Under the pieces are notes generated by a model that saw nothing but the letters and a program-made list of their open reading frames with translations, searched no databases and was not told where the DNA came from. A DNA stretch of 64,000 nt from Mycobacterium decipiens (lineage in GTDB: Bacteria > Actinomycetota > Actinomycetes > Mycobacteriales > Mycobacteriaceae). The position numbers were made by a program, and so were the translations under genes. Location of the stretch: NCBI RefSeq assembly GCF_963853665.1, contig NZ_OY970459.1, positions 1,364,001-1,428,000 of the forward strand, read 5' to 3'. Below, one piece after another: positions 38,418 through 53,293 of this stretch. Position 1 is the stretch's first letter. Each line of letters starts with the position of its first letter.

Positions 38418-38784
38418 GGGGCTGAACGGTTTCGACTTCGCGCATCGAATCAAGGGAAGCGTGCCGGTGCAGGCAAGAGACCACCGTAAGCGTCGTTGCA
38501 ACCATATAAGCGCCGATTCACATCAGCGCGACTACGCTCTCGCTGCCTAAGCGACGGCTAGTCTGTCAGACCGGGAACGCCCTCGGCCCGGACCCTGGCA
38601 TCAGCTAGAGGGATCCACCGATGAGTTCGGTCGCGGGACTCATCGGGACAACCACAGCGACTGGGATCGTCATCCTGGCTAGTTCGCGTGACCGGGAGAT
38701 CCGAGTAGAGGCATAGCGAACTGCGCACGGAGAAGCCTTGAGGGAATGCCGTAGGACCCGGGTTCGATTCCCGGCAGCTCCACC
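38418..38784 (+). ncRNA. ssrA: Transfer-messenger RNA (tmRNA)
   Basis: Rescues stalled ribosomes with SmpB. The 5' end GGGGCTGAACGG pairs with the 3' end CAGCTCC to form the tRNA-like acceptor stem, and the T-arm GGGTTCGATTCCC is present at the 3' side. The internal reading frame at 38512-38550 begins after AAGC and encodes the tag ADSHQRDYALAA followed by TAA, ending in the AA protease signal. The tRNA-like 3' end is the integration site of the adjoining element; integration kept the gene intact. The CCA end is not fully encoded (ACC then G). Confidence 0.97.
38769..38783 (+). repeat. attL: 15-bp direct repeat within the tmRNA 3' end
   Basis: TCCCGGCAGCTCCAC is repeated exactly at 41038-41052. 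This copy is the functional tmRNA 3' end. A duplication of a tRNA or tmRNA 3' end is the usual footprint of a tyrosine integrase. Confidence 0.85.
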
Positions 38785-39248
38785 GACTTCACCAGCACTT
38801 ATAAGGTCACCCTAAGACACCGTGTACACATGGTCTGCGAATTGTTTGATCGTCCATCGCCAGATGCCGCAACGGCGGGCCCTCGATGGCCCAGGAGAAA
38901 TGCCGGGAAGCGCTATCGGGGCCTATGTACGCAGAAGGCGGACGGAGTCCCAGTCGCAGGCCCGAGTCGGCGGTTGACTAGCAAACATTTCAGTCGAGAC
39001 TGCGACGAGTGCCGCCGCGACCAATGTAACGGTGTCCATGGGTTAGAGTGGCGGCGATTCGCCGCCCTTCACCACGCGGGGGCGCCAGTGTTCGGGTGGT
39101 CGCGATGCAACAGGCGTCGAACTTCGAGGTCGAACATTTCGGACCAGTACGAGTATGAAGACACGCGCGTCGGGACCCGCATGCAGCGGAGATCGTCGGA
39201 GTACTGTTTGGTCCGACGAAGTTTGTCGTTCATAGGGGTTCTGCGCAG
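38785..39248. other. 464 bases between ssrA and the ATPase gene
   Basis: No convincing gene. A 140-codon plus-strand frame (38830-39252) has no motifs and no clear ribosome-binding site. The segment should contain the promoter of the ATPase gene. A 17-codon frame near 39104 reads MQQASNFEVEHFGPVRV, which resembles the start of SMC-like ATPases but stops at once; probably chance or a decayed start. Confidence 0.45.
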
Positions 39249-40736
39249 TTGACCGAGATTAAGAGTGAGATCCGCACTAGCACGATCCATGCTCTTGAGG
39301 AGAAGGTTTCAAAGGGAAACTACGGGAAGTATCTGAGCAGACTCGTGCTCAAACGAGTGCGTGGCTTTACGGATCGCGAAGTCACATTTGACTTTCCAGT
39401 TACCGCTCTGGTGGGACCGAATGGTGGAGGCAAGACAACGATACTCGGCGCAGCCGGACTCATCTATCGCGATGTGCCGCCAAGGCGATTTTTTGCTAAG
39501 AGTGGCAAATATGACAGCAGTATGAAGGACTGGACTGTTGAATATCAGCTCATCGACAAGGAGATAAATCCAAGAATTCCGGTTCCACGTACAGCAAGTT
39601 ACCTTAAAGCAAAATGGAACCGCTCTGCTGTTGAACGGGAAGTATTGATATTTGGCGTCGAGCGCACCGTGCCTGCAACGGAACGCAGAGAGTTGGTCAG
39701 AGCAGTAGGCGGTAAGTTTATGGCTTTCCAAGAGATTGCATTGACAGACATTGTTTCGGAAAACGTTGCGCGAATATTAGGGAAGCCTATTGAAGGTTTT
39801 AATCGGCTGTCTGTGGACCAATCCGGCAAAGTCACAATGTATGCAGGCCAGACTAATAAAGGGGCCGAATACTCTGAATTTCACTTCGGGGCTGGTGAAG
39901 CCAGCGTCATCCGGATTGTTAGTGACATCGAGAACGCGTCAGAAAACGCCTTGATTCTAGTGGAAGAAATTGAGAACGGGCTTCATCCCGTTGCGACTAG
40001 ACGGATGGTCGAGTATCTAATCGACGTCGCAGCGAGAAAGGCCTGCCAAGTTATCTTCACTACCCATTCGAATGATGCTTTAGCGCCTTTACCATCTCGC
40101 GCTATATGGGCTGCTTACAACGGAGAAGTCCTGCAAGGTAAGTTGGATATTGCCGCCCTGCGAACGATCACGGGTCAAATAGATGCGAGTCTCGCAATCT
40201 TTGTGGAGGACGCGTACGCCGAGTTGTTAACAGCGACGGTGCTGCGGTATACGAAAGGCGTCGAGTTATCCGCCATTAAAATCCACCGCATGGGTGGTGC
40301 AAGTCCGGCGCTGAAGGTGAATGAGCAACACAATCTCGACCCGACCTCGACGTTTCCGTCTGTCTGCTTATTGGATGCCGACCACTCGGCCGGCGCAGAT
40401 GCAGAAAAGAAGGTATTTGTACTTCCCGGAAGTGGGCACCCCGAAGCGCATATTCTGGATCGTGTCGTCAGCCGACTTGATACCGTTGCTGCGAAATTGA
40501 CAGTATCTATGCAGTTACCCCCAAACCAACAAGTACGCGTAAAAGACGTCATCAATGCGCGAATGCTGACAAATTACGACGTCCACGTCATCTGGGAACA
40601 AATAGGCGAAGATCTCGATTTTACGTCTGGCCAAACGGTAGCAACGGCTTTTATGGCGATCTGGGCTCAGGAGTTCCCGGACGAGGTCACTCAACTTGTC
40701 GATCAATTTCGCAATCTAGTGCCGGTCGCTACGTAG
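39249..40736 (+). CDS. OLD/ABC-type ATPase with probable TOPRIM-like C-terminus (candidate defence protein)
   Basis: A 495-residue protein with a TTG start. The N-terminal ATPase is SMC/OLD-like: Walker A GPNGGGKTT near residue 57 after a LKRVRGFTDREVTFDF strand, an ABC-signature-like FGAGEASVIRI near residue 217, Walker B ALILVEEIENGLHP near residue 234 and the H-loop VIFTTHSNDAL. After residue 310, AIFVEDAYAELLTATVL and SVCLLDADHSAG fit the Glu and DxD signature of TOPRIM nucleases in OLD, GajA and related proteins. The gene is alone in a low-GC element. Phage defence is an inference from family and context. It could instead be a DNA-repair type ATPase or an inactive fragment. Confidence 0.75.
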   Translation: MTEIKSEIRTSTIHALEEKVSKGNYGKYLSRLVLKRVRGFTDREVTFDFPVTALVGPNGGGKTTILGAAGLIYRDVPPRRFFAKSGKYDSSMKDWTVEYQLIDKEINPRIPVPRTASYLKAKWNRSAVEREVLIFGVERTVPATERRELVRAVGGKFMAFQEIALTDIVSENVARILGKPIEGFNRLSVDQSGKVTMYAGQTNKGAEYSEFHFGAGEASVIRIVSDIENASENALILVEEIENGLHPVATRRMVEYLIDVAARKACQVIFTTHSNDALAPLPSRAIWAAYNGEVLQGKLDIAALRTITGQIDASLAIFVEDAYAELLTATVLRYTKGVELSAIKIHRMGGASPALKVNEQHNLDPTSTFPSVCLLDADHSAGADAEKKVFVLPGSGHPEAHILDRVVSRLDTVAAKLTVSMQLPPNQQVRVKDVINARMLTNYDVHVIWEQIGEDLDFTSGQTVATAFMAIWAQEFPDEVTQLVDQFRNLVPVAT

Positions 40737-41037
40737 GATACGACATCGTGCGCCGCGATAATTCCCGGCTGGCCGCCGCTTCGAGTTGCGAAGTGCAAAT
40801 TCTGGAATCGTAGGCACGGCGTGTACGCTATCCGGCCGACGACCGATGATTTGAGCTGTCGGGAGTTGTTCGGGGCATAGCAAACCCCGTCGTGAAGCTG
40901 CCGGGAATATGTGCGCGGTGGGTACACGTACACACCCGACCTCCGAAAACGCCGTAATACCAGGCAATTTCTCGGAACGCTACGTAGGCCAATAGCCAGG
41001 TCAGGGGGTGTTTCCCAGCGCAACGGCGTAATTCTAC
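40737..41037. other. 301 bases between the ATPase gene and attR
   Basis: No gene with coding character on either strand. The GC content rises back to the host level. It may hold integrase arm-type sites, but none can be recognised by eye. Confidence 0.4.
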
Positions 41038-41052
41038 TCCCGGCAGCTCCAC
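41038..41052 (+). repeat. attR: 15-bp direct repeat of the tmRNA 3' end
   Basis: Exact copy of bases 38769-38783. It is not part of a tmRNA-like fold here: the upstream T-arm sequence is absent. It therefore marks the distal end of the integrated segment. Confidence 0.8.
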
Positions 41053-41137
41053 AGAGTGAGCAGCATGAATAGTACAAATATCGGCCACATCAGCACCGCG
41101 TCAGCACGATTCGACGCTAGGATGCCCGGCGTGGCCC

Positions 41138-42677: not shown

Positions 42678-43694
42678 CTACTCGGCGAGCCGGTTCACGA
42701 GAGCGCTGAAGACGGTGGGCAGCCGCGTTGCGGCCGGCACGATCCGGGAGCGCACCGCCGGGTAGGCGCTGGCGTGCAGCGCCGCCGCCGTCAGCATGCG
42801 GTACCGGCGGGACATGCGGCGCCATCGGCGTTCATAGGCGGCGGGCCGGTCGGCGGCGACGCACCCGACCAGCAACTCGGCGCCCCCGAACGCAATGCCC
42901 AGCCCCTCGCCGGTCAGCGCGTCGACGTATCCTGCTGCGTCACCGACCAACAACACCCGGCCGGCAACCCGGCTGCGTACCTTCTGCCGTAGCGGGCCCG
43001 CGGCGCGGTCGCGGCTGTGCGGCCGGCCTGCTACCCGGTCGTCCAGCGACGGGAACGATTCGAGGTGCCGGTCGAATCGCCCGCGGCGGGAGGTGAGGAT
43101 CGTGATGCCGACGCACTCGTCGGACACCGGGGTGACGTACGCCTCTTCGTCGTCGGACCAGTGCACCTCGATGTTCTCCTGCCAGGGAGCGATCTGGACG
43201 TGGCGGCGAATTCCCCACCGGCGCCGGTCATTTGTTGGCATAGCCAGCCCGAGCGCGGTGCGGATCGGCGAGTGCAGCCCGTCTGCGGCGGCGAGGTAGC
43301 GGGCGCGAAAGCCGCCGCACCGCACCGACATCGCATCCTGACTGACCTCGCCGACGTCGCCTTGCACGACCTTCACACCGGCGGCTGCCACCGCGTCCAG
43401 GAGTGCGCCGTGCAATGCCGATCGCTGTACTCCGCGCCCAACACCGGATCGAAACGCCGCGCTGACGCTCCGACGTCCGTCGTGATAGCTAATGCCGTGG
43501 AACAGTTTACCCGGGGGATCTACGCCAAGGCGGTTGAGATGTGCCAAGGAATGCGGCATCAATCCTTCACCGCAGGCCTTGTCTATTGTCCCCGAGCGCT
43601 TTTCGATCACGACGACCTCGAGTCCGGCCTTGGCGCCGTATAGCGCCGTCGTGAGTCCGGCCGGGCCTCCACCTGCCACCAGGAGGTCAATCAT
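42678..43694 (-). CDS. FAD-dependent oxidoreductase (geranylgeranyl-reductase/SrsC-like flavoprotein)
   Basis: A 338-residue flavoprotein that begins DLLVAGGGPAGLTTALYGAKAGLEVVVIEKR (FAD Rossmann fold). The aromatic-hydroxylase-like second FAD motif is VLLVGDAAGYVDALTGEGLGIAFGGAELL. ACGEGLMPHSLAHLNRLG resembles the geranylgeranyl-reductase/FixC-type group. Start at the ATG at 43694, overlapping the methyltransferase stop by ATGA; the longer frame to 44120 overlaps that gene entirely. Last gene of the operon MmpL-T3PKS-methyltransferase-oxidoreductase. By analogy with Streptomyces SrsC it may hydroxylate a methylated alkylresorcinol to give a quinone (inference). Confidence 0.85.
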   Translation of the reverse strand: MIDLLVAGGGPAGLTTALYGAKAGLEVVVIEKRSGTIDKACGEGLMPHSLAHLNRLGVDPPGKLFHGISYHDGRRSVSAAFRSGVGRGVQRSALHGALLDAVAAAGVKVVQGDVGEVSQDAMSVRCGGFRARYLAAADGLHSPIRTALGLAMPTNDRRRWGIRRHVQIAPWQENIEVHWSDDEEAYVTPVSDECVGITILTSRRGRFDRHLESFPSLDDRVAGRPHSRDRAAGPLRQKVRSRVAGRVLLVGDAAGYVDALTGEGLGIAFGGAELLVGCVAADRPAAYERRWRRMSRRYRMLTAAALHASAYPAVRSRIVPAATRLPTVFSALVNRLAE

Positions 43695-44200
43695 TTCAGG
43701 CCTGCAAGGGCAGCGTTTTCGACACCGATCCGCGTGCGCAACAATGCGGCGTTGAGCACGGTGAACACGAGTGCTGTGATCCATGCGCCGTGCAGCAATG
43801 GCAGCGCGATTCCCTCGACCACCACGGCGACATAGTTCGGGTGTGAGAAGAACCGGTATGGGCCGCCAGTGACCCGGGGTGCATCGGGTATGACGACGAC
43901 TCGGGTGTTCCACTGCGGGCCCAACGTGGTGATGCACCGCCACCGCAGGACCTGAGCCCCGACCACCAGCGCCAACATCGGCCAGCCGAGCGCTCCAACG
44001 AATGGACGGTGCAGCGCAAGCACTTCCACCAGGCATCCCATCAGCAAACCGATGTGCAGTGTGACCATGGTCGGGTAGTGGCGAGCGCCGAATTCGATGC
44101 CGCCACGGGCGCGGCTCCACGCGAGGTTACGGTTCGAGACGACCAGTTCAACGACGCGCTCGACCGCGACCGCGACGATCAGCAATATGTACCAGGACAT
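43691..44200 (-). CDS. Isoprenylcysteine carboxyl-methyltransferase-family membrane protein (SrsB-like)
   Basis: A 169-residue integral membrane protein with four or five hydrophobic helices. The C-terminal SAM-binding pattern of ICMT-like enzymes is present: RWRCITTLGPQWNTRVVVIPDAPRVTGGPYRFFSHPNYVAVVVEGIALPLLHGAW, where GPYRFFSHPNY is diagnostic. Bacterial members next to type III polyketide synthases O-methylate phenolic lipids (SrsB in Streptomyces griseus). It starts 12 bases after the polyketide synthase and overlaps the oxidoreductase, so co-expression is nearly certain. The protein would act in the plasma membrane on a lipid substrate. Confidence 0.88.
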   Translation of the reverse strand: MSWYILLIVAVAVERVVELVVSNRNLAWSRARGGIEFGARHYPTMVTLHIGLLMGCLVEVLALHRPFVGALGWPMLALVVGAQVLRWRCITTLGPQWNTRVVVIPDAPRVTGGPYRFFSHPNYVAVVVEGIALPLLHGAWITALVFTVLNAALLRTRIGVENAALAGLK

Positions 44201-44212
44201 GGGCGGCGAAGG

Positions 44213-45277
44213 TCAGTGCCACCGCAGCAGCACGAGCTCTGCGCAGAAACCGGGACCCATTGCCATCAGCATCCCTGGACTGCCGCTGGCCGGCTGCTTT
44301 TTTACAAGCGTGTCGCGCAATACGTGCAGCACCGACGACGACGACAGGTTTCCGACCTCGCTCAACGAACGCCACGTCAGCTCGAGCGCCTCATCGGGCA
44401 ACACCAGGGATTTGTTGATCGCCTCGATGACCTTCGGGCCGCCCGGGTGGCTCACCCAAACGCCGATGTCGTCGATCGTCAGCCCATGGCCGGACAGGAA
44501 TCCGGTCAGGTCGTCGGCCAGGTGCCGCTCAATGAGGGTGGCAACGTTGGGAGACAGGACAAGCGAGAGTCCGGACGCGCCGAAGTTCCACCCCATCGTG
44601 GTCAGGGAGTCCGGGTACAGCCGGCTTCGCGAGTCCACGACAGTTGGCCCACGCACACCGATCCGCTCGGCGCGTTGATCGCCCACGGCGACCACCGCCG
44701 CGGCGCCGTCAGCGAACAGCGCACTTCCGACCATGGTGGCGACCGTAGGCTCGGCACCGGGGTAAGTCAGCGAGCACAACTCGACTGACACCAGTACCGC
44801 CACATCGTTCGGCGCACCTCGCAGGTAGTCGTTCAACCGCGCGACGCCGGCCGCTCCGGCGACGCAGCCCAGGCCGAACAGCGGCATACGGCGCACATCT
44901 GGCCGCAGACCCAGGCGGCCGGCAATGCGGGCGTCCAACGACGGCACCGCCAAGCCGGTCACCGTGGTCGTGACGATCAGATCGACGTCCTCCGGCTTGA
45001 GGCCCGCCTCGTCGAGCGCACGAGACAGGGCGGCAGATCCGAGCTCGACCGCGTTCTCGATGAAGATGTCGTTCGCCTCACCGAAATCGGTAAGGGAGGA
45101 GTATCTCTCCAGTGGAAGAACGAAATGGCGACTGTCGACTTTGGCATGCGCGTGTAGTTTCCGGACGAGATCCTCATGGGGTGCGTAACCCGGAAGCCGG
45201 ACGAACGCTTCGGTGATCTCCTCTTGGGCGTAGCGGTGCGGCGGTAACGCACCCTGCACTCCTGCGATAACACTCAT
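44213..45277 (-). CDS. Type III polyketide synthase (chalcone/alkylresorcinol synthase-like)
   Basis: A 354-residue homodimeric ketosynthase that extends an acyl-CoA starter with malonyl-CoA and cyclises the product. The catalytic triad is complete: C138 ([12 protein letters not shown]), H277 ([14 protein letters not shown]) and N310 ([13 protein letters not shown]). The C-terminal [14 protein letters not shown] is the family GFGPG-like loop. The ATG at 45277 has AGGGAAAG upstream; the frame runs 11 codons further but without a site. Mycobacterial relatives (Pks10/11/18 and the M. marinum enzymes) use long-chain acyl-CoAs, so an alkylpyrone, alkylresorcinol or benzoquinone lipid is the likely product. 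Confidence 0.92.
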
Positions 45278-45315
45278 ATCAACTTTCCCTAGAACGTGGT
45301 TGTGGCGCAATTCGG

Positions 45316-47607
45316 TTAGACGCGCAACCCATTGGTCAATTCGGCATTGAATTGTTGGTCGGTTGGGCCCGTGGCCAACCCTTGCTCGGGTATCGCGACG
45401 GAGTCACCGTCGTTGAGCCCGAGAAGCTTGTGCACGCGGACCAGGGCCGCGGGAGCCCACCAGTTTCGTCGTCCGAGGATGTGCATGAATGCCGGCACCA
45501 GAACCATTCGCACCAAAGTGGCGTCGACGAGGACGGCCACCGTGAGGCCAAGGCCGAACATCCGCAAGAACGACACGTTGGACGCAATCAGCGCAGCGAA
45601 GGAGATCGACATGATCAATGCGGCAGCGGTAACGACCCGACCGGTGCGGGCGATTCCGCGGGCCACACTCTCGTCGTTGTCGGCGGCTCCGGATGCCAGC
45701 CAGAACTCGCGGATTCTGGAGACCAGGAACACCTCGTAGTCCATCGACAAGCCGAAAGCGATACAGAACAGCAGCACCGGGATGTTGGCGACCAAGATCC
45801 CGCTGGGCGTCGTTCCGAACGCGCCGAGGTGCCCATCCTGGAAGATCCACACCACCGCGCCGAAAGCGGCAGTGAGCGAAAGGACGTTGAGCACCAACGC
45901 TTTCAGCGGCATCACGACGCTGCCCGTCAACAGGAAGAGCAGGACGAACATGATGCTGGCGATCAGCCCGAGCACCAGTGGCAAACGTGATGCGATGGCG
46001 TCGACACTGTCTCGATTGGTCTGGGCGGTGCCGGCGAAATCGACTTTCGTGCCACCCGGGGTGGGGACCGCGTGCAGGCGGTCGAGCTGGGTTTCGGAGC
46101 GGTCGGAGAACAGCGGAGCTGTGCTGTCGACGGTAAGGAACGCGCTGCCTCGGGTCTGGCCCGCCGGGGCAGACTGTTGTCCGACGGCGGCGCCAGCGAT
46201 GTAGGTTGCGGTCGGGGTGGAGACCGCGGAGACCTCGGGCACCCGCGACAGGTCAACGGCGTATTCCTCAATCTCGCTGCGGGTTAGATCGTCTGTGTCG
46301 GGAATGACGATGGTCACCGCGGTCTCGGAATTGATGGCGAAGTTGTCGCGCAGTTGGTCGCCGACCTGGTGCGCGGAGGCCGAGGTAGGCAGCACGCGGT
46401 AGTCGGGGAAGCCCCATTTGACGCTGAGGAACGGCAGACCAAGGAACACCAGGACGGCGACGCCTCCCAGTCCGACCGGCGCGGCACGGCGGATGACAAA
46501 CTTCGTCCAGCGGTACCAGAACTGCCGCTGGACGGGCTGCGGGGCGGGCTCGGGCCGGCCCAGCGGGCGGCGAACGAGCCGACGGATGTTGAAGGAATCC
46601 AGCCGGTCGCCGAGCACGACCAGCGCGGCGGGCGTGACAACCACGGCGGCGAAGGCGGCGAACGTAACGACGGCGACACCCGCGTAGGCGAAGGACTTTA
46701 GGAAATGCATCGGGAACAACACCATGACCGCCATTGAGAGGGCGACCGTTGTGGCCGAGAACAATACGGTGCGACCCGCCGTGACCACGGTGCGAACCAC
46801 GGCAACCTCGCGGTCTGCGCCGTCAGCCAACTCGTCGCGGTAGCGGCTGATTATCAACAGCGTGTAGTCGATGGCCAGCGCCAAACCCATGGCGGTGGTG
46901 AGGTTGAGTGCGAATATCGACACGTCGGTGGCGAACGAGATCGCACGCAGCACCGCAAGGGCGCCGAAAATCGCCATTCCGCCGATGGCCACGGGCAGGG
47001 CTGCTGCGATCAGACCGCCAAATACCCAGACCAGCACGAGGAAGCTGAGTGGGATCGCGATCGATTCCATCAACAGCAGGTCGCGCTGCGACTGCTTGGT
47101 GATCTGAACGTTGACCATTGCGGCGCCGCCCGTCCGCACGGTCGCGCCGCTACGGTCGTGCGTCACCTGGGTGGCGAGCTCGTCGGCGTACTTCTGCTGG
47201 TCGCTTTCGTTTCCCGTGATGCCCGCGACGATTAGCCCCGTGTTTCGATCCTTGCTAACCAGATCGATGGCGGCCTGCGGTGCTGTCCACGGCGAGGCCA
47301 CATCGACCACATGTGGCGAGCTTCTCAGTTGGTCGGCAATTTCAGTGCCCGCGGCCCGAGCGGCCGGGCTGTCGACGCCATCTGGTGTGGAGACGGTGAC
47401 GAGCAGCTGTGTGTCACCCTGGCTGAACTTGTCCGTCAGGAGCTGGCTCGCCCTCGCCGATTCCGACGTCGGATCTTGAAATCCACTGACGGACAGGCTG
47501 TTTGCTACTGGGATACCAAAGATGGCCAGGGCCAATGTGAGGAGGGCTGCCGCGACGATGACGCGTCGTGGACCGGTGATCGCCATCCTCGCAATCTGGT
47601 TTAGCAA
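45316..47607 (-). CDS. MmpL family RND transporter
   Basis: A 763-residue MmpL-type lipid exporter with two repeats, each of one transmembrane helix, a periplasmic porter domain and a bundle of five helices. The proton-relay DY pairs are in [19 protein letters not shown] (first repeat) and [19 protein letters not shown] (second repeat). It lacks the long C-terminal tail of MmpL3 and resembles the MmpL13-like short group. It is the first gene of the operon, 38 bases before the polyketide synthase, so it presumably exports that product to the outer membrane. No MmpS gene is present. Confidence 0.92.
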
Positions 47608-47990: not shown

Positions 47991-48680
47991 CTAGTCATCG
48001 CTCATGCGGGTCTTGATCGCGTCCTGGGAGATGTAGACGTCGTATTCACCGGGCGCAGAGATGACGGCGTTGCCGTATGCCGACCGCACGAACGGCTTGG
48101 TCCACCACTTGCCCCCGCGCATGTCGGCGAAAAAGCTCGCGTCACCGCCGTTCAGCAAGATGTGGTGCTGTGTCGGCGCAACCCCGTCGAGGCGTTCACC
48201 AAACAGGCGGGTCACCTTGTAGCCGGAATGCACCCCCAGGACATTCACCCAGTGGTGGAGCTCGACGATGTTGGCTTGCAGCACCCACAGGTCGCCTTCG
48301 ACCTGATAGGTCTGGTGCGCGTATGCGTTGCCGTCATCGTCGTAGAGCGTGAGATCCACGTTCAGGCGGTGTGTGGCGTTGCTGACCGGAGTCGCCAGCA
48401 CGTGGGCGGCTTTGACTTCGCCAGTCAGACCCAAATAGGTCTGCACCAGCGTGGCGAACCAGAGCAGCAGAAGCGAAACAATCAGCAGTGCAACGCCGCT
48501 CACCGCTCGTGCGGGCCGGAATCGCAGTCGGCGCCCCCGCTGCGCCGACTGCGCAGAACTGTCGCTGGATTTCATCATCCGGCGTCGCCCGACCACCGAC
48601 GACAGCAACATCACCAGAGCGCCGACGGCCACACCTGCCAGCACAATCTGCGGCACGCCAAACTGGTGAGGATAAGTCAT
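47991..48680 (-). CDS. Membrane protein of unknown function
   Basis: A 229-residue protein from the ATG at 48680 (MTYPHQFGVPQIVLAGVAVGALVMLLSSVVGRRR). Two transmembrane segments: about residues 11-31 and 57-77 (AVSGVALLIVSLLLLWFATLV). Between them is a basic cytosolic loop; the C-terminal about 150 residues are extracytoplasmic and hold VDLTLYDDDGNAYAHQTYQVEGDLWVLQANIVELHHWVNVLGVHSGYKVTRLFGE. The last part resembles uncharacterised proteins also found in proteobacteria, whose function I cannot name. It is not at this place in M. tuberculosis as I recall. Divergent from lipY with about 200 bases between. Confidence 0.8.
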   Translation of the reverse strand: MTYPHQFGVPQIVLAGVAVGALVMLLSSVVGRRRMMKSSDSSAQSAQRGRRLRFRPARAVSGVALLIVSLLLLWFATLVQTYLGLTGEVKAAHVLATPVSNATHRLNVDLTLYDDDGNAYAHQTYQVEGDLWVLQANIVELHHWVNVLGVHSGYKVTRLFGERLDGVAPTQHHILLNGGDASFFADMRGGKWWTKPFVRSAYGNAVISAPGEYDVYISQDAIKTRMSDD

Positions 48681-48886
48681 AGCCTCTAGTTGTACCCGCC
48701 GCGGTTGACCGTAGCTGCGGCAGCTGCGGCTTGCGAATCTTGGGCTCGGGCAAGTCCGAATCCGACGGCGCGAGTTCGGTGCAAACTGCTTCGCGATTCC
48801 TCGGCGCGGGCATAGGCTCCGACTACTCGGCGATCTGTATCGGCTGGGCAACTTGGGAGGTTGTCTGGGGTGGCGGGAGCGGCGCG

Positions 48887-50293
48887 GTGCCTTATCTTTT
48901 TGCATTGCCGGAGGTGATGTCCGCCGCGGCCACGGATGTGGCCGCAATTGGTTCGTTGGTCGCGACGGCGAACCAGGGCGTGGCGGGTGCCACCACGGGA
49001 GTTTTAGCCGCTGCCGAAGACGAGGTGTCGACGGCGATCGCGGCGTTGTTTTCCGCCCACGGCCAGAGCTATCAAGCTGTTAGCGCACAGGTAGCGGCTT
49101 TTCATCAGCGGTTTGTGCAGGCATTGACCGGCGCTGCGGGGGTATATACCGCTGCCGAGGTGGGCAACGCTGCGCTGTTGGAGGGCGGGTTCGCCGGAGC
49201 TATCGGTAACGGTTTGGCCTTCGTTCAGCAGGAAATTCAGCAGACCCCTACGACGCTGGCCACTGGTTTCACCCGGTTGACCAACACGGCGTTCACCGAA
49301 ATATTCGGAGCGCCGGCTGCTGGGCCCTTCCCGGCAACGCAGGAAGGGACCTTCACCGGCACACCATCCCTGGTAACCAGGTTGGAAACCGCCGCGCTGT
49401 GGCCGGTGAAACCGCTGCTCAGCTTGTCCGGACTCGAAACTCAACTTGCTGTGCCAGGCAACCCCCTATTGTCGCTGATTGCCAGCGACATCCCGCCGAT
49501 ATCGTGGATTGTCGGGAACTCTCCGCCACCGTTGTTGAACTTGCTGCTGGGACAAACGGTCCAGTACACCGCATATGACGGGATGAGCGTCGTGCAGATC
49601 ACGCCGATCAGTCCCACCGGCGAACACGTGGTCGCCATTCACGGTGGCGGGTTTGTCCTTCCGCCTTCATTTCTCCACTGGATCAACTACTCGGTGATGG
49701 CCCACCAGACCGGCGCGACCGTTCAAGTGCCGATTTACCCGTTGGTCCAGGAAGGTGGAACCGCTGGCATTGTGGTACCCCAGATGGCGGGCCTCATCTC
49801 CGCCCAAATCGCTCAACACGGGGCGTCCAATGTCAGCGTGATCGGTGACTCCGCGGGCGGCAACCTCGCATTAGCGGCCGTTCAGCACATGGTGGGCCAG
49901 GGCAACCCCGTACCCGAGTCGATGGTTCTGCTGTCCCCGTGGCTGGACGTAGGGATGACCAATCCAAACATCGCGTTGGTCGCCGATCCACTGCTGCCGG
50001 TTGGGCCTGCCCAACAGATCGGCAAGGTGTGGGCAGGCGATCTTGCGGTAACCGACCCGCTGGTGAGTCCGCTGTATGGGTCGCTTAGCGGACTCCCGCC
50101 GACGTATGTCTATGCGGGCAACCTGGACATACTCGCACCCGACGTGTTCGTCCTCCAACAAGCGGCCGTAGACCAAGGGGCTCCGATCAGCTTCGTACTG
50201 GCCAACGGCCAAATTCACGATTGGGTTCTGCTCACCTTGGACGGTTTGCGATACCTCCCGCAGATCAACCAGCAACTCGGCATCGCGGCCTGA
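48887..50293 (+). CDS. lipY: PE-domain triacylglycerol lipase LipY
   Basis: A 468-residue lipase with an N-terminal PE domain (about residues 1-100: [50 protein letters not shown]) that directs ESX-5 export, then a hormone-sensitive-lipase domain. Oxyanion motif HGGGFVLPP, nucleophile Ser in [12 protein letters not shown], Asp in [11 protein letters not shown] and His in GQIHDWVLL are all present. LipY hydrolyses stored triacylglycerol. A GTG start at 48887 with GGGAG upstream gives the proper PE N-terminus; the frame is open earlier. It has about 18 residues after WLDVGM that M. tuberculosis LipY seems to lack. Confidence 0.93.
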
Positions 50294-50374
50294 GCGGGAG
50301 TCACGCAGAGATGCGGCCCGGTTGTCCAGGAGTCCGGTTGCGGCCGAAGACTGGCTCCCCAAAGAATCGTGTGG

Positions 50375-51511
50375 CTAATCCTGGCTCTGCGCGCCGGTCA
50401 GCTTGCGAATCGTGTGAACTTCGTCGTCGTGATAGGGCCGCCCATTGGGTTGTAGCAGGTCGCTGAACCACACTTTCGGGGGCGCTTTGTACGGGTGATC
50501 CCACGAGTCCCACGGCAGGTACGTCTGAGTCTTTCCAGCGACCAAACCCCAATTGAATGCGCCAACGTTGTGTCGCTTGGCGATTGGCAGGATGCCTTCA
50601 ACTGTGCTGCCCCGGGACCGAGCCAGGTACTCGGTGCATAGGATCGGTCGCCCCAGCGGGGCAAGTTCAGCGATCCGGGCTTCGAAGTCGGCCGGGGCGG
50701 CGTAGCTATGGAAGGTGATCACGTCGGCGTTGTCGAGCTGAATGCCTCCGATTGTGCTGCGGTGCCCGGGATCCGCCCAGTTCCCCTGCCAGACGCCACT
50801 TGTCAACGGCTGACTCGGATCGACCGCACGCGCCCACCGGAACACTTGCGGAAGCAGCTCTGCGACCCGCTCCAGCTTGTCCTTCCTTTCCACCTTGCGA
50901 TACACGCGCGCGGGATTGTCGGGCTCATTCCACAGGTCCCATCCCAACACGCGATCATCATTGCGGAACTGACTCAAGACCGCGGTGACGTAGTCGCACA
51001 GAATCCGTTGGTAGCGCCGGTCATCGAGGTGTTCGGCGCCCGGGCTCTGCACCCAACCGGAGTTGTGCACCCCGGGTCTGGGCGCGCGTTGACGACCTGG
51101 CCTGGGGATCGGATCCCAACAGGAGTCGAACAAGACAAAGAGTGGCTTGATGCCGTGCTGCGCCGCGATGCCGACAAACTGCGCGAGACGGCCTTGGAAG
51201 CCGCGTGGATCCTGGGCCCACAGCAGATCGTGGAGGAAGACGCGCACCGTGTTGAACCCGTGAAACCGGGCCACACCCAGCTCGCTGTCGATGCGCCGCG
51301 GGTCATAGGTGCCCGGCTGAAACATCTCGAGCTGATTGATGGCGGTTGAGGTGATGTAGTTCGCGCCGACGAGCCAGCCGTGCGCCCGATACCAGTTGTT
51401 GGCACGGTCAGCCGACCACCGGCCTGGTTCGGCTGCGGCACGGGGCGCGCGGGCCAGTGCCGTGCCGGCCGCCAGCAGCAGCGGCAGTTTCAGGGTCGTT
51501 CGACGATGCAC
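50375..51511 (-). CDS. Secreted glycoside hydrolase family 5-like protein (Rv3096 orthologue)
   Basis: A 378-residue cellulase/mannanase-type (beta/alpha)8 barrel. The N-terminus MHRRTTLKLPLLLAAGTALARAPRAAAEPG is a signal sequence with an RR pair, perhaps Tat. The acid/base Glu is in GWDLWNEPDNPARVYRK and the nucleophile Glu in PILCTEYLARS; both catalytic residues are in place. Other GH5-like features are FNTVRVFLHDLLW and VITFHSYAA. The substrate is unknown: mannan-type or plant-type glycans are possible. Convergent with lipY. Confidence 0.9.
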   Translation of the reverse strand: MHRRTTLKLPLLLAAGTALARAPRAAAEPGRWSADRANNWYRAHGWLVGANYITSTAINQLEMFQPGTYDPRRIDSELGVARFHGFNTVRVFLHDLLWAQDPRGFQGRLAQFVGIAAQHGIKPLFVLFDSCWDPIPRPGRQRAPRPGVHNSGWVQSPGAEHLDDRRYQRILCDYVTAVLSQFRNDDRVLGWDLWNEPDNPARVYRKVERKDKLERVAELLPQVFRWARAVDPSQPLTSGVWQGNWADPGHRSTIGGIQLDNADVITFHSYAAPADFEARIAELAPLGRPILCTEYLARSRGSTVEGILPIAKRHNVGAFNWGLVAGKTQTYLPWDSWDHPYKAPPKVWFSDLLQPNGRPYHDDEVHTIRKLTGAQSQD

Positions 51512-51606
51512 GAAGCGACGATAGATTTCGCGGGCGATGTGTTCGCCTTGCGCGGCGCCGTGTTTGGGCTTGCTTATCGATTCGCAATACTTGAGGTTGG
51601 GAATCG

Positions 51607-52083
51607 TTACGACGACGCCGGTTTGGCGCGGAAGCCCGGGCCCGGTTCGGGCGTCACATTTCGCGCGGTGATCTCATCGCCGCAGTGGGTGCAGATCAGG
51701 CGGGGATCGGCATCCTCGCCGCAGGTGTGGTGGCGCAGCACGATCGGTGGCCCTTCCGGCTGCGCCAAGTGCTCGTCCCCCCACCGCATGAGGACGACGA
51801 TCGCGGCGAACAGATCGCGGCCCGCCTCGGTGAGCCGGTACTCGTGGCGCTCGGGATCGGAGGAATACGGCACCCGGTCGAGCAGGCCCACGTTCACAAG
51901 CATCCGCAGCCGCGACGACAGCGTGGGTCGCGGAATGCTGAGGTTGCGCGCGAACTGACCGAAGCGCCGCACCCCGAAGAACGCCTCACGCAGGATGAGG
52001 AGTGTCCAGCGCTCACCGACCAGCTCGAGTGCCCGGCCGACCGACTCCCCGTCGAAGCGGTGGGAGAGATCGGTAACGGCCAT
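51607..52083 (-). CDS. HxlR family transcriptional regulator (Rv3095 orthologue)
   Basis: A 158-residue winged-helix regulator of the HxlR group: ALELVGERWTLLILREAFFGVRRFGQFARNLSIPRPTLSSRLRMLVNVGLLDRVPY is the DNA-binding domain. A C-terminal extension has Cys residues in HTCGEDADPRLICTHCGDEI, a possible zinc-ribbon or redox switch. It is divergent from Rv3094c with 79 bases between starts and an inverted repeat in that gap, so it most likely controls itself and the oxidoreductase operon. Confidence 0.93.
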   Translation of the reverse strand: MAVTDLSHRFDGESVGRALELVGERWTLLILREAFFGVRRFGQFARNLSIPRPTLSSRLRMLVNVGLLDRVPYSSDPERHEYRLTEAGRDLFAAIVVLMRWGDEHLAQPEGPPIVLRHHTCGEDADPRLICTHCGDEITARNVTPEPGPGFRAKPASS

Positions 52084-52101
52084 GGTTCACCAACTGTACC
52101 C

Positions 52102-52118
52102 GGTTCAATCACTGAACC
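52102..52118. promoter_or_regulatory. Inverted repeat in the HxlR/oxidoreductase intergenic region
   Basis: GGTTCA-ATCAC-TGAACC is a perfect 6-base inverted repeat with a 5-base spacer. Partial copies of the half-site occur at 52084 (GGTTCA) and 52135 (TTGAAC). It lies between the divergent starts, so it is the probable operator of the HxlR regulator. Confidence 0.75.
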
Positions 52119-52162
52119 AGGGGTGGTAACTTCATTGAACCGTCCGTACCCAGGAGCCGCCG

Positions 52163-53293
52163 ATGAAGCAGAGCGACACCGAGATCGAGATCCTCGCCGA
52201 GAAGATCGCGCTTTCGGCCCGGGAGTTATCCGCGCAGATCGACCGGGATCGCGGGCTGCCCGACGAGCTGGTGACCCGGCTGCGCGAGGCGGGGCTGCTG
52301 CGGGCCACCATGCCTGCAGAGGTTGAGGCGCTGGAGCTGGCGCCCGGACCGGCATTGCGGTGTGCCGAAACGGTGGCGCGTGGCGACGCCTCGGCGGGCT
52401 GGTGCGTGTCGATCGCGATCACCAGTGCCCTGCTGGTCGCCTACCTGCCGGCGTCCAGCCGCGCGGAAATGTTCGGCGACGGGCGGGGTGTCGCGGCGGG
52501 GGTGTGGGCTCCGCGTGGCACGGCAAGATCGGTCGATGGCGGTGTTGTGGTGTCCGGGCGCTGGCCATTCTGCAGCGGGATCAACGACGCCGACATGATG
52601 TTCGCCGGCTGCTTCGTGGACGAGCGGTCGGGGCCTTCTGTGGTTGCACTACCCAAAGGGGACCTGCGGGTCCTCGACACCTGGCACACGCTGGGTCTGC
52701 GCGGCACCGGCAGCCATGACTGCGTTGCCGATAATGTCTTCGTGCCCGCCGATCGCGTGTTCTCGGTGTTCGACGGGCCGAGGGTGGACCGGCCGCTGTA
52801 TCGCTTTCCGGTGTTCGGATTCTTCGCGTTGTCGATCGGTGCCGCCGCGCTGGGGAACGCTCGTGCGGCCATCGACGACCTCATCGAGCTGGCCGGTGGC
52901 AAGAAAGGGCTTGGATCGACGCGCACCTTGGCGCAACGCTCAGCGACCCAAGCGGCGGTGGCCACGGCCGAGTCGGCTTTGAGCGGCGCTCGCGCGCTGT
53001 GCTACGAGGCGATCGAGGCGGCCTGGCAGGCCAGCCACGAGGCTGAGGTGGTGCCGGTGGCGATGCGCAACCGGCTACGTCTGGCGGCCACCCACGCGGT
53101 ACGGACCTCGGCCGACGTGGCGCGCACCATGTATGACCTGGGGGGCGGCAGCGCCATCTACGACGGCTCACCGCTGCAGCGTCGGTTCCGCGACGCATTC
53201 ACGGCGACCGCCCACTTCCAGGTCAACGAGGCATCACGAGAGCTGCCCGGCCGCGTCCTGCTCGACCAACCGGCCGACGTGTCGATGCTGTGA
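52163..53293 (+). CDS. Acyl-CoA-dehydrogenase-fold flavin monooxygenase (Rv3094c orthologue)
   Basis: A 376-residue protein of the ACAD fold, of the kind that uses reduced flavin as a co-substrate (HsaA/DszC group). LREAGLLRATMPAEVEALELAPGPALRCAETVARGDASAGWCVSIAITSALLVAYLP, GRWPFCSGINDADMMFAGCF and TLGLRGTGSHDCVADNVFVPADRVF are typical of that group; the catalytic Glu of true dehydrogenases is not evident. AGGAG precedes the ATG. It overlaps Rv3093c by GTGA and heads the operon under HxlR control. Possible role: hydroxylation of a small aromatic or other substrate. Confidence 0.9.
   Translation: MKQSDTEIEILAEKIALSARELSAQIDRDRGLPDELVTRLREAGLLRATMPAEVEALELAPGPALRCAETVARGDASAGWCVSIAITSALLVAYLPASSRAEMFGDGRGVAAGVWAPRGTARSVDGGVVVSGRWPFCSGINDADMMFAGCFVDERSGPSVVALPKGDLRVLDTWHTLGLRGTGSHDCVADNVFVPADRVFSVFDGPRVDRPLYRFPVFGFFALSIGAAALGNARAAIDDLIELAGGKKGLGSTRTLAQRSATQAAVATAESALSGARALCYEAIEAAWQASHEAEVVPVAMRNRLRLAATHAVRTSADVARTMYDLGGGSAIYDGSPLQRRFRDAFTATAHFQVNEASRELPGRVLLDQPADVSML

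Follow-up and report, generated by a model that had tools for sequence, protein, structure and literature searches.

A conserved mmpL gene in a type III polyketide synthase operon of Mycobacterium decipiens that probably makes a methylated alkyl-benzoquinone lipid

The polyketide quinones of Mycobacterium smegmatis are made from pkqABC, an operon (MSMEG_0808-type) that holds a type III polyketide synthase (PKS), a methyltransferase and a flavin adenine dinucleotide (FAD)-dependent oxidoreductase (Anand 2015, as related in the citing papers PMC9927152, PMC8730385 and PMC5916927; here and below, published statements are taken from passages of the papers numbered). Such quinones, proposed as alternative electron carriers for hypoxic biofilms, are described in electron transfer where oxygen is poor (PMC9927152, PMC6305584, PMC12680188). 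A like set of PKS, methyltransferase and hydroxylase or oxidoreductase makes up srsABC of Streptomyces griseus and a three-gene cluster of Streptomyces MNU77 (PMC9927152). The same three enzymes are encoded in one operon in a 64,000-nucleotide stretch of Mycobacterium decipiens DNA (contig NZ_OY970459.1, positions 1,364,001 to 1,428,000; hereafter the window), where they follow a gene for an MmpL, a lipid transporter of the RND family. We hold with moderate confidence that this operon makes a methylated alkyl-benzoquinone, or the quinol, that would be translocated by the MmpL.

The operon lies on the minus strand of 42678-47607, and all four of its genes are intact. The MmpL gene comes first (45316..47607, 763 amino acids, with a TTG start at 47607), followed by the type III PKS (44213..45277, 354 amino acids from the ATG at 45277), the ICMT-family membrane methyltransferase (43691..44200, 169 amino acids) and the FAD-dependent oxidoreductase or hydroxylase (42678..43694, 338 amino acids); the Pfam domains, in the same order, are MMPL, Chal_sti_synt_N/C, ICMT and FAD_binding_3. 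The PKS start is preceded by AGGGAAAG, and an in-frame TTG at 45310 is a possible alternative. A 480-amino-acid open reading frame for the FAD gene was rejected, as its start is too early, and the 338-amino-acid version was taken. An earlier note, made from the letters of the DNA, had described a tightly packed four-gene operon on one strand, joined by two ATGA-like overlaps or short gaps. The reading frames are confirmed and the packing is tight; its exact form is one ATGA overlap, of the FAD start with the methyltransferase stop (-4 nucleotides), and two short gaps, of 38 nucleotides between MmpL and PKS and of 12 between PKS and methyltransferase, rather than two overlaps. Upstream, a 383-base gap separates the MmpL gene from the next gene (47991-48680), whose product is without match in Pfam or NCBIfam. 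A promoter and terminator scan gave no signal exceeding shuffled sequence.

Is this arrangement peculiar to M. decipiens? Of the 198 genomes sampled within the genus, 173 have relatives of the methyltransferase, and from the matches listed (to about 2e-63) we took 80 regions, none longer than 20 kb, mostly passing over places near contig ends. These regions hold 81 ICMT matches, 57 of them nearer the window copy (type A) and 24 nearer a second M. decipiens copy at C1:4030858 (type B). A PKS lies upstream in all 57 type A loci, the FAD gene lies downstream in 56, and in 44 an MmpL gene stands less than 400 bases upstream of the PKS, in the order seen in the window and with all genes on one strand. 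As the loci were picked by the methyltransferase alone, the four-gene arrangement is far from chance. In the other 13, the stretch of about 20 kb that was covered contains no MmpL match, and one type A PKS (L149, the same place as L021) is apparently broken. The type A operon is also carried by 25 of 80 named loci found via MmpL, where an MmpL is present by construction; in two of the 25 (L032 and L102) the MmpL is 1-1.8 kb away. Named carriers include M. agri, M. moriokaense, M. rhodesiae, M. austroafricanum, M. iranicum, M. vaccae and M. parafortuitum, and the window operon is not unique within the genus. The surroundings of type A operons have no gene in common throughout: even the most frequent neighbour family occurs at only 23 of 82 loci (genes were picked by codon GC, and short ones may escape). 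Among the neighbours are an M15 carboxypeptidase-like gene, probably for a lipoprotein, upstream of MmpL at 22 of the 82 (e.g. L179:5558-6322, L148:11384-12247 and L143:13738-14604), a short-chain dehydrogenase/reductase (SDR) gene directly 3' of the FAD gene at 11, and a weakly PEMT-like membrane protein upstream at 8. At L210:4716-11219 a PKS-ICMT pair, 48 and 56% identical to the window proteins, immediately precedes a complete MmpL-PKS-ICMT-FAD operon.

Does the MmpL share the history of the enzymes as well as their position? Across 69 complete operons, the distances among MmpLs correlate with those of the PKS (r = 0.856), the FAD protein (0.876) and the methyltransferase (0.816), none of 999 shuffles being as high, and these values match the correlations of the enzymes with one another (0.769-0.885; again 0 of 999). 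In a quick MmpL tree of 63 thinned rows the operon MmpLs form one group (97 by the Shimodaira-Hasegawa-like approximate likelihood-ratio test, SH-aLRT), 30 of whose 31 rows adjoin a PKS, the exception being L073. The window pairs with M. agri in the MmpL tree (support 97) and, weakly, by PKS (86); in a PKS tree made with more care, from 41 thinned rows with a midpoint root and with the long type B row L210_Bi flagged, that relation holds only within a starred group of ten.

The operons without MmpL do not have a single origin on the 41-row tree. Placing eight of them in one clade was rejected (approximately unbiased, AU, test, p 0.0002), and MmpL presence needs three changes. An MmpL is present both in L042, the first type A branch, and in L210, the neighbour of the M. 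smegmatis-like group. Under the midpoint root this favours loss over gain: possession of the MmpL is probably the ancestral condition of the operon, with repeated loss afterwards.

To which class does pkqABC itself belong? We sought a proxy for M. smegmatis by MmpL3 identity over 170 amino acids in 396 genomes, using a solved MmpL3 chain that we take to be from that species; G077 stands at 98% and G369 at 96%, and none reaches 100%. Each of the two has one type III PKS match, and M. smegmatis is described as having a 'sole type III PKS gene, pkqA' (PMC9927152). The G077 cluster is PKS-ICMT-FAD, 69, 67 and 65% identical to the window enzymes, and has no MmpL match in 20 kb, whereas the window and 44 of the 57 type A loci have MmpL first. 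By this proxy, pkqABC would be a type A cluster without the transporter. The earlier note had likened the last three genes to srsABC, and the likeness stands in gene order, families, active-site residues and the 65-69% identity to the G077 trio; that to SrsC is by family only.

The window PKS has M. tuberculosis Pks11 as its nearest solved structure (E 1.9e-169), and its catalytic triad (Cys138, His277 and Asn310, numbered from the ATG) is intact, as had been noted before. It has Trp230, at the position of residue 281 in ArsB and 230 in MMAR_2474; a Trp here is linked to alkylresorcinol formation (PMC5916927; PMC9927152), and MMAR_2470, a pure pyrone former, has Tyr (PMC5916927). In the loci collected, the Trp is present in every type A PKS (82 of 82, the window copy included) and in every type B PKS (39 of 39), and the pks10-like copy of M. 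decipiens has Tyr. If the numbering is equal, F25, F52, Y59, Y172, W230 and V283 are the published residues of MMAR_2474, a resorcinol and phloroglucinol former (PMC5916927), and differences fall at 189 (Ala), 238 (Ser) and 245 (Val). Directly downstream on the same strand come the methyltransferase, which keeps the motif GPYR...HPNYVAV (GPYR in 68 and HPNYVA in 63 of the 69 complete operons), and the FAD protein. The latter scores best with the geranylgeranyl-reductase superfamily (105.7 bits, under the curated cut-off of 158.8) and more weakly with UbiH-type hydroxylases (TIGR01988, 2.3e-11). Its superfamily is compatible with a ring hydroxylase, which is the best fit with the pathway, and this activity is predicted, not proven.

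The window MmpL (PF03176 at 266 bits) has both Asp-Tyr proton-relay pairs, AIDY in transmembrane segment 4 and MDYE (GLSMDYE) in segment 10, and they are present in the MmpLs of all 69 complete operons; the role of these pairs in MmpLs is described in PMC10171966. A large cytoplasmic C-terminal domain is given as typical of MmpL3, MmpL11 and MmpL13, the MmpLs of cluster II (PMC6463170; PMC10171966). That domain is missing from the 763-residue window protein, whose alignment to MmpL3 stops at residue 735 with 28 residues remaining, and we therefore call it MmpL13-like by sequence only. Its paralogues in the M. decipiens genome are 65% (the MmpL13-like gene), 61% and 47% identical. The last of these, at G000:C1:3683746-3689408 (L135), has a weak match to the ICMT family 3.3 kb away and is possibly part of another lipid cluster.

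The MmpL13-like gene of M. decipiens (C1:4022941-4025202, 64-65% identical to the window MmpL) shares its locus with mcr and an SDR gene; we take this locus to be that of Rv1143-Rv1147, with mcr and SDR as the Rv1143/Rv1144-like genes. The window MmpL does not lie at such a locus, and is a paralogue of this gene rather than the MmpL13 orthologue. MmpL13 itself (Rv1145/Rv1146), whose function is given as unknown in one review (PMC6463170), is like the window MmpL in sequence but has its own syntenic locus, not reliably tied to a quinone cluster. In M. decipiens and in 17 of the 24 type B ICMT loci, an MmpL13-like gene lies 7-10 kb from the ICMT on the opposite strand. Among 40 loci anchored on the neighbouring SDR gene, however, 14 have MmpL13 with no quinone cluster in the region, and one such genome (G125) has no ICMT match at all. 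The coupling is thus not general, which weakens the idea of MmpL13 as a quinone transporter everywhere, and for that reason the transporter role is not extended to it. Of the 14 genomes with MmpL13, at least four (G098, G156, G039 and G081) also have an MmpL-bearing type A operon. Eight of the 40 loci have no MmpL match in the region. Five of these (L295, L303, L304, L310 and L317, in G176, G024, G136, G151 and G093) are from genomes that carry an MmpL-bearing type A operon elsewhere; the other three are L285, a second SDR-mcr copy of G195, L301 (G006), where an MmpL is farther away, and L290 (G083). The lack of an MmpL match at the SDR-anchored locus of five genomes that have the operon MmpL is suggestive only.

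What might the operon do? We propose that the PKS would extend a long-chain acyl-coenzyme A (CoA) with malonyl-CoA and probably methylmalonyl-CoA and close a (methylated) alkylresorcinol ring; that the ICMT-type membrane enzyme would O-methylate the alkylresorcinol; that the FAD enzyme would hydroxylate the ring, yielding a methoxy-methyl-alkyl-hydroquinone or benzoquinone; and that the proton-driven MmpL would move this lipid across the inner membrane to its periplasmic face or beyond. The three enzyme steps, predicted from homology to enzymes with published products and from conserved residues, are quite likely. That the MmpL acts on the quinone product, as operon membership and co-divergence suggest, we favour only slightly. 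The earlier note had the MmpL exporting the product to the outer membrane: the MmpL partner is real and conserved (44 of 57 loci), and the outer-membrane destination is an inference.

Several points weigh against this pathway with its dedicated transporter. Correlated MmpL and enzyme distances are also expected from shared species history. The MmpL is not required to make the lipid, because the 13 type A loci without an MmpL match include the M. smegmatis proxy; that assignment is itself by proxy only, with MmpL3 identity below 100% and a presumed organism for the reference chain. An inner-membrane respiratory quinone needs no exporter. Redundancy is possible, since the M. decipiens genome also contains the pks10/pks11-like pair and another PKS-ICMT-FAD cluster. 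Finally, quinones were undetectable in an M. smegmatis mutant biofilm rescued by MMAR_2474 (PMC5916927). One would not expect a transporter beside a respiratory carrier, and the puzzle has two solutions: the product may do its work beyond the inner membrane, or the MmpL may flip it from leaflet to leaflet. In the second case the quinone would serve inner-membrane respiration, and the MmpL would be a local flippase that balances it between the two leaflets or loads the periplasmic one, without delivering it to the outer membrane. The published electron-carrier role in M. smegmatis and Streptomyces MNU77 (PMC9927152), the occurrence of type A clusters without MmpL and the short end of the window MmpL are in keeping with this. 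The known MmpL substrates, however, are envelope lipids and siderophores moved to the periplasm (PMC6463170), and the MmpL-less clusters indicate that quinone synthesis is independent of a flippase; we consider the flippase unlikely, though it deserves real weight. That the MmpL serves some other lipid, and is an unrelated neighbour that came to be fixed beside the cluster through chance or a transfer event, is in our estimate quite improbable. MmpL13-type relatives without a nearby quinone cluster (the 14 SDR-anchored loci, G125 among them) show that such proteins can stand alone, but the operon MmpL is adjacent and co-directional in most type A loci, and the operon MmpLs form their own group, beside the PKS in nearly every row and diverging in step with the enzymes.

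Other alternatives concern the product. The operon might end at a methoxy-alkylresorcinol or an acyl-phloroglucinol, a structural or antibiotic-tolerance lipid of the mycomembrane, with the FAD enzyme catalysing a different oxidation, or a reduction, and the pathway yielding no quinone carrier. The likeness of the PKS residues to those of MMAR_2474 (PMC5916927), the best score of the FAD protein, below its cut-off, with a reductase superfamily, and the report that loss of srsA raises beta-lactam sensitivity in S. griseus (PMC10896814) point that way. We doubt it, as the set of PKS, methyltransferase and FAD enzyme is the one with published quinone products, and UbiH-type hydroxylases do score for the FAD protein. 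Might the FAD protein instead be a phenol halogenase, giving halogenated alkylresorcinols? ChlB4 is its top PDB sequence match, and with a model built from six sequences (mean predicted local distance difference test, pLDDT, 76.7) Foldseek finds mainly flavin-dependent halogenases, including PltM with phloroglucinol, then other flavoenzymes, aromatic hydroxylases and phenol-acting enzymes among them. Sequence identity, however, is only 14-21% across the 50 Foldseek matches listed, the catalytic-Lys position, placed by eye in the six-sequence alignment A1, is variable (K/R/K/M/R/K), and by eye no WxWxIP motif is seen. The halogenase was rejected on these grounds, and its probability is very small.

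The M. decipiens genome has five type III PKS genes above the Pfam cut-off. Besides the window copy (44213..45277) there are a pks10/pks11-like pair, 17 kb apart (G000:C1:2414295-2432649, L136 and L137; 71-72% identical to the window PKS), the PKS of the type B PKS-ICMT-FAD cluster (C1:4030858-4033416; 51-53%), and a distant copy (31%) provisionally labelled pks18-like. Among the type B loci a PKS match is present in 19 of 24, one of them a fragment (L186). Some type B clusters of the collected loci (L198, L203, L204, L207, L209, L291 and L308) keep ICMT and FAD without a PKS match. The pks10/pks11-like pair nests inside the operon PKSs, and grouping the 30 operon PKSs together without the pair was rejected (AU p 0.0185, a moderate result for a constraint that was set once the tree was known). 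The nesting suggests an origin of Pks10 and Pks11 from a quinone-type operon.

The site of the operon was compared in ten relatives' regions around the homologue of 50375-51511. The operon, which lies between a LipY-like gene and the transfer-messenger RNA (tmRNA) gene, is missing in G023 (L258), the only one of the ten with the same flanking order, and so its presence at this site is variable. On the upstream side, 48731-53293 holds genes for a PE-domain lipase (LipY-like), a GH5-like protein, an HxlR protein and an acyl-CoA dehydrogenase, an order that we take to be that of Rv3097c-Rv3094c. The tmRNA 3' end is repeated (24 nucleotides, 88%) at 41032-41055, bounding a 2.3-kb piece of low GC (0.535) at 38763-41055. 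The AAA ATPase encoded inside it (39249-40736) aligns almost end to end with PADLOC HEC-04 (E 5e-219), and the piece is a candidate for small defence cargo at the tmRNA site; no integrase was noticed. That the operon is cargo of a tmRNA-site island was rejected, as the repeat-bounded piece excludes it and its GC is 0.651 against 0.648 for the whole window.

The operon suggests that, in some mycobacteria, a quinone of respiratory type crosses or leaves the inner membrane by way of a transporter. If many clusters of the genus carry their own MmpL, the working place of the quinone becomes testable genetically, and the operon offers an MmpL, near MmpL13, with a short list of candidate substrates, together with a possible origin of Pks10 and Pks11. 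According to a 2025 review (PMC12680188), it is untested whether polyketide quinones can replace menaquinone in M. tuberculosis. A far-reaching scenario, speculative and in our judgement rather doubtful, is that many mycobacteria, rather than retaining a polyketide quinone in the inner membrane, actively load it into the envelope or biofilm matrix via a dedicated MmpL, as an electron shuttle across the envelope or between cells, that the characterised three-gene cluster is a derived form that lost its transporter, and that Pks10 and Pks11 of the tuberculosis group come from the PKS of a transporter-bearing operon.

How does the window operon compare with the remaining described systems? The type B cluster of M. 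decipiens lies near echA, mcr, SDR and the MmpL13-like gene, which stands apart and on the opposite strand, unlike the MmpL of the window. By map position only, this cluster is perhaps of the mmar_4313 type. The mmar_4313 cluster is a published polyketide quinone cluster with the same three enzymes, and the orthologue of pkqABC according to Parvez et al. (PMC5916927). The earlier note had also spoken of alkyl-benzoquinones reported from type III PKS clusters of M. marinum; quinones are reported from M. smegmatis instead, as the citing papers relate, and the M. marinum enzymes gave pyrones, resorcinols and phloroglucinols in vitro (Parvez 2018, PMC5916927). Pks11, of the Pks10/Pks11 pair of M. 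tuberculosis and M. marinum, is the closest solved PKS to that of the window, but the M. decipiens pks10/pks11-like pair has no ICMT, FAD or MmpL match nearby in L136 and L137; in the published cluster type I PKSs lie between Pks10 and Pks11. The PKS of Streptomyces MNU77 has Trp at the resorcinol position, like the window PKS, and its cluster, likened here by description, comes without the word 'transporter' in the main text of PMC9927152. The hid and planctomycetal alkylresorcinol operons have methyltransferase, oxidoreductase and type III PKS in three-gene sets, as in the window, but with the PKS last and no MmpL in the description given in PMC10896814. In the open-access literature covered, by title, opening of the abstract or passage, no MmpL is described as the companion of a quinone cluster built on a type III PKS; much of the subscription literature falls outside this scope, and we claim no priority. 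Because the enzymes match the published pkqABC and srsABC recipe, the MmpL is the new element of a known set.

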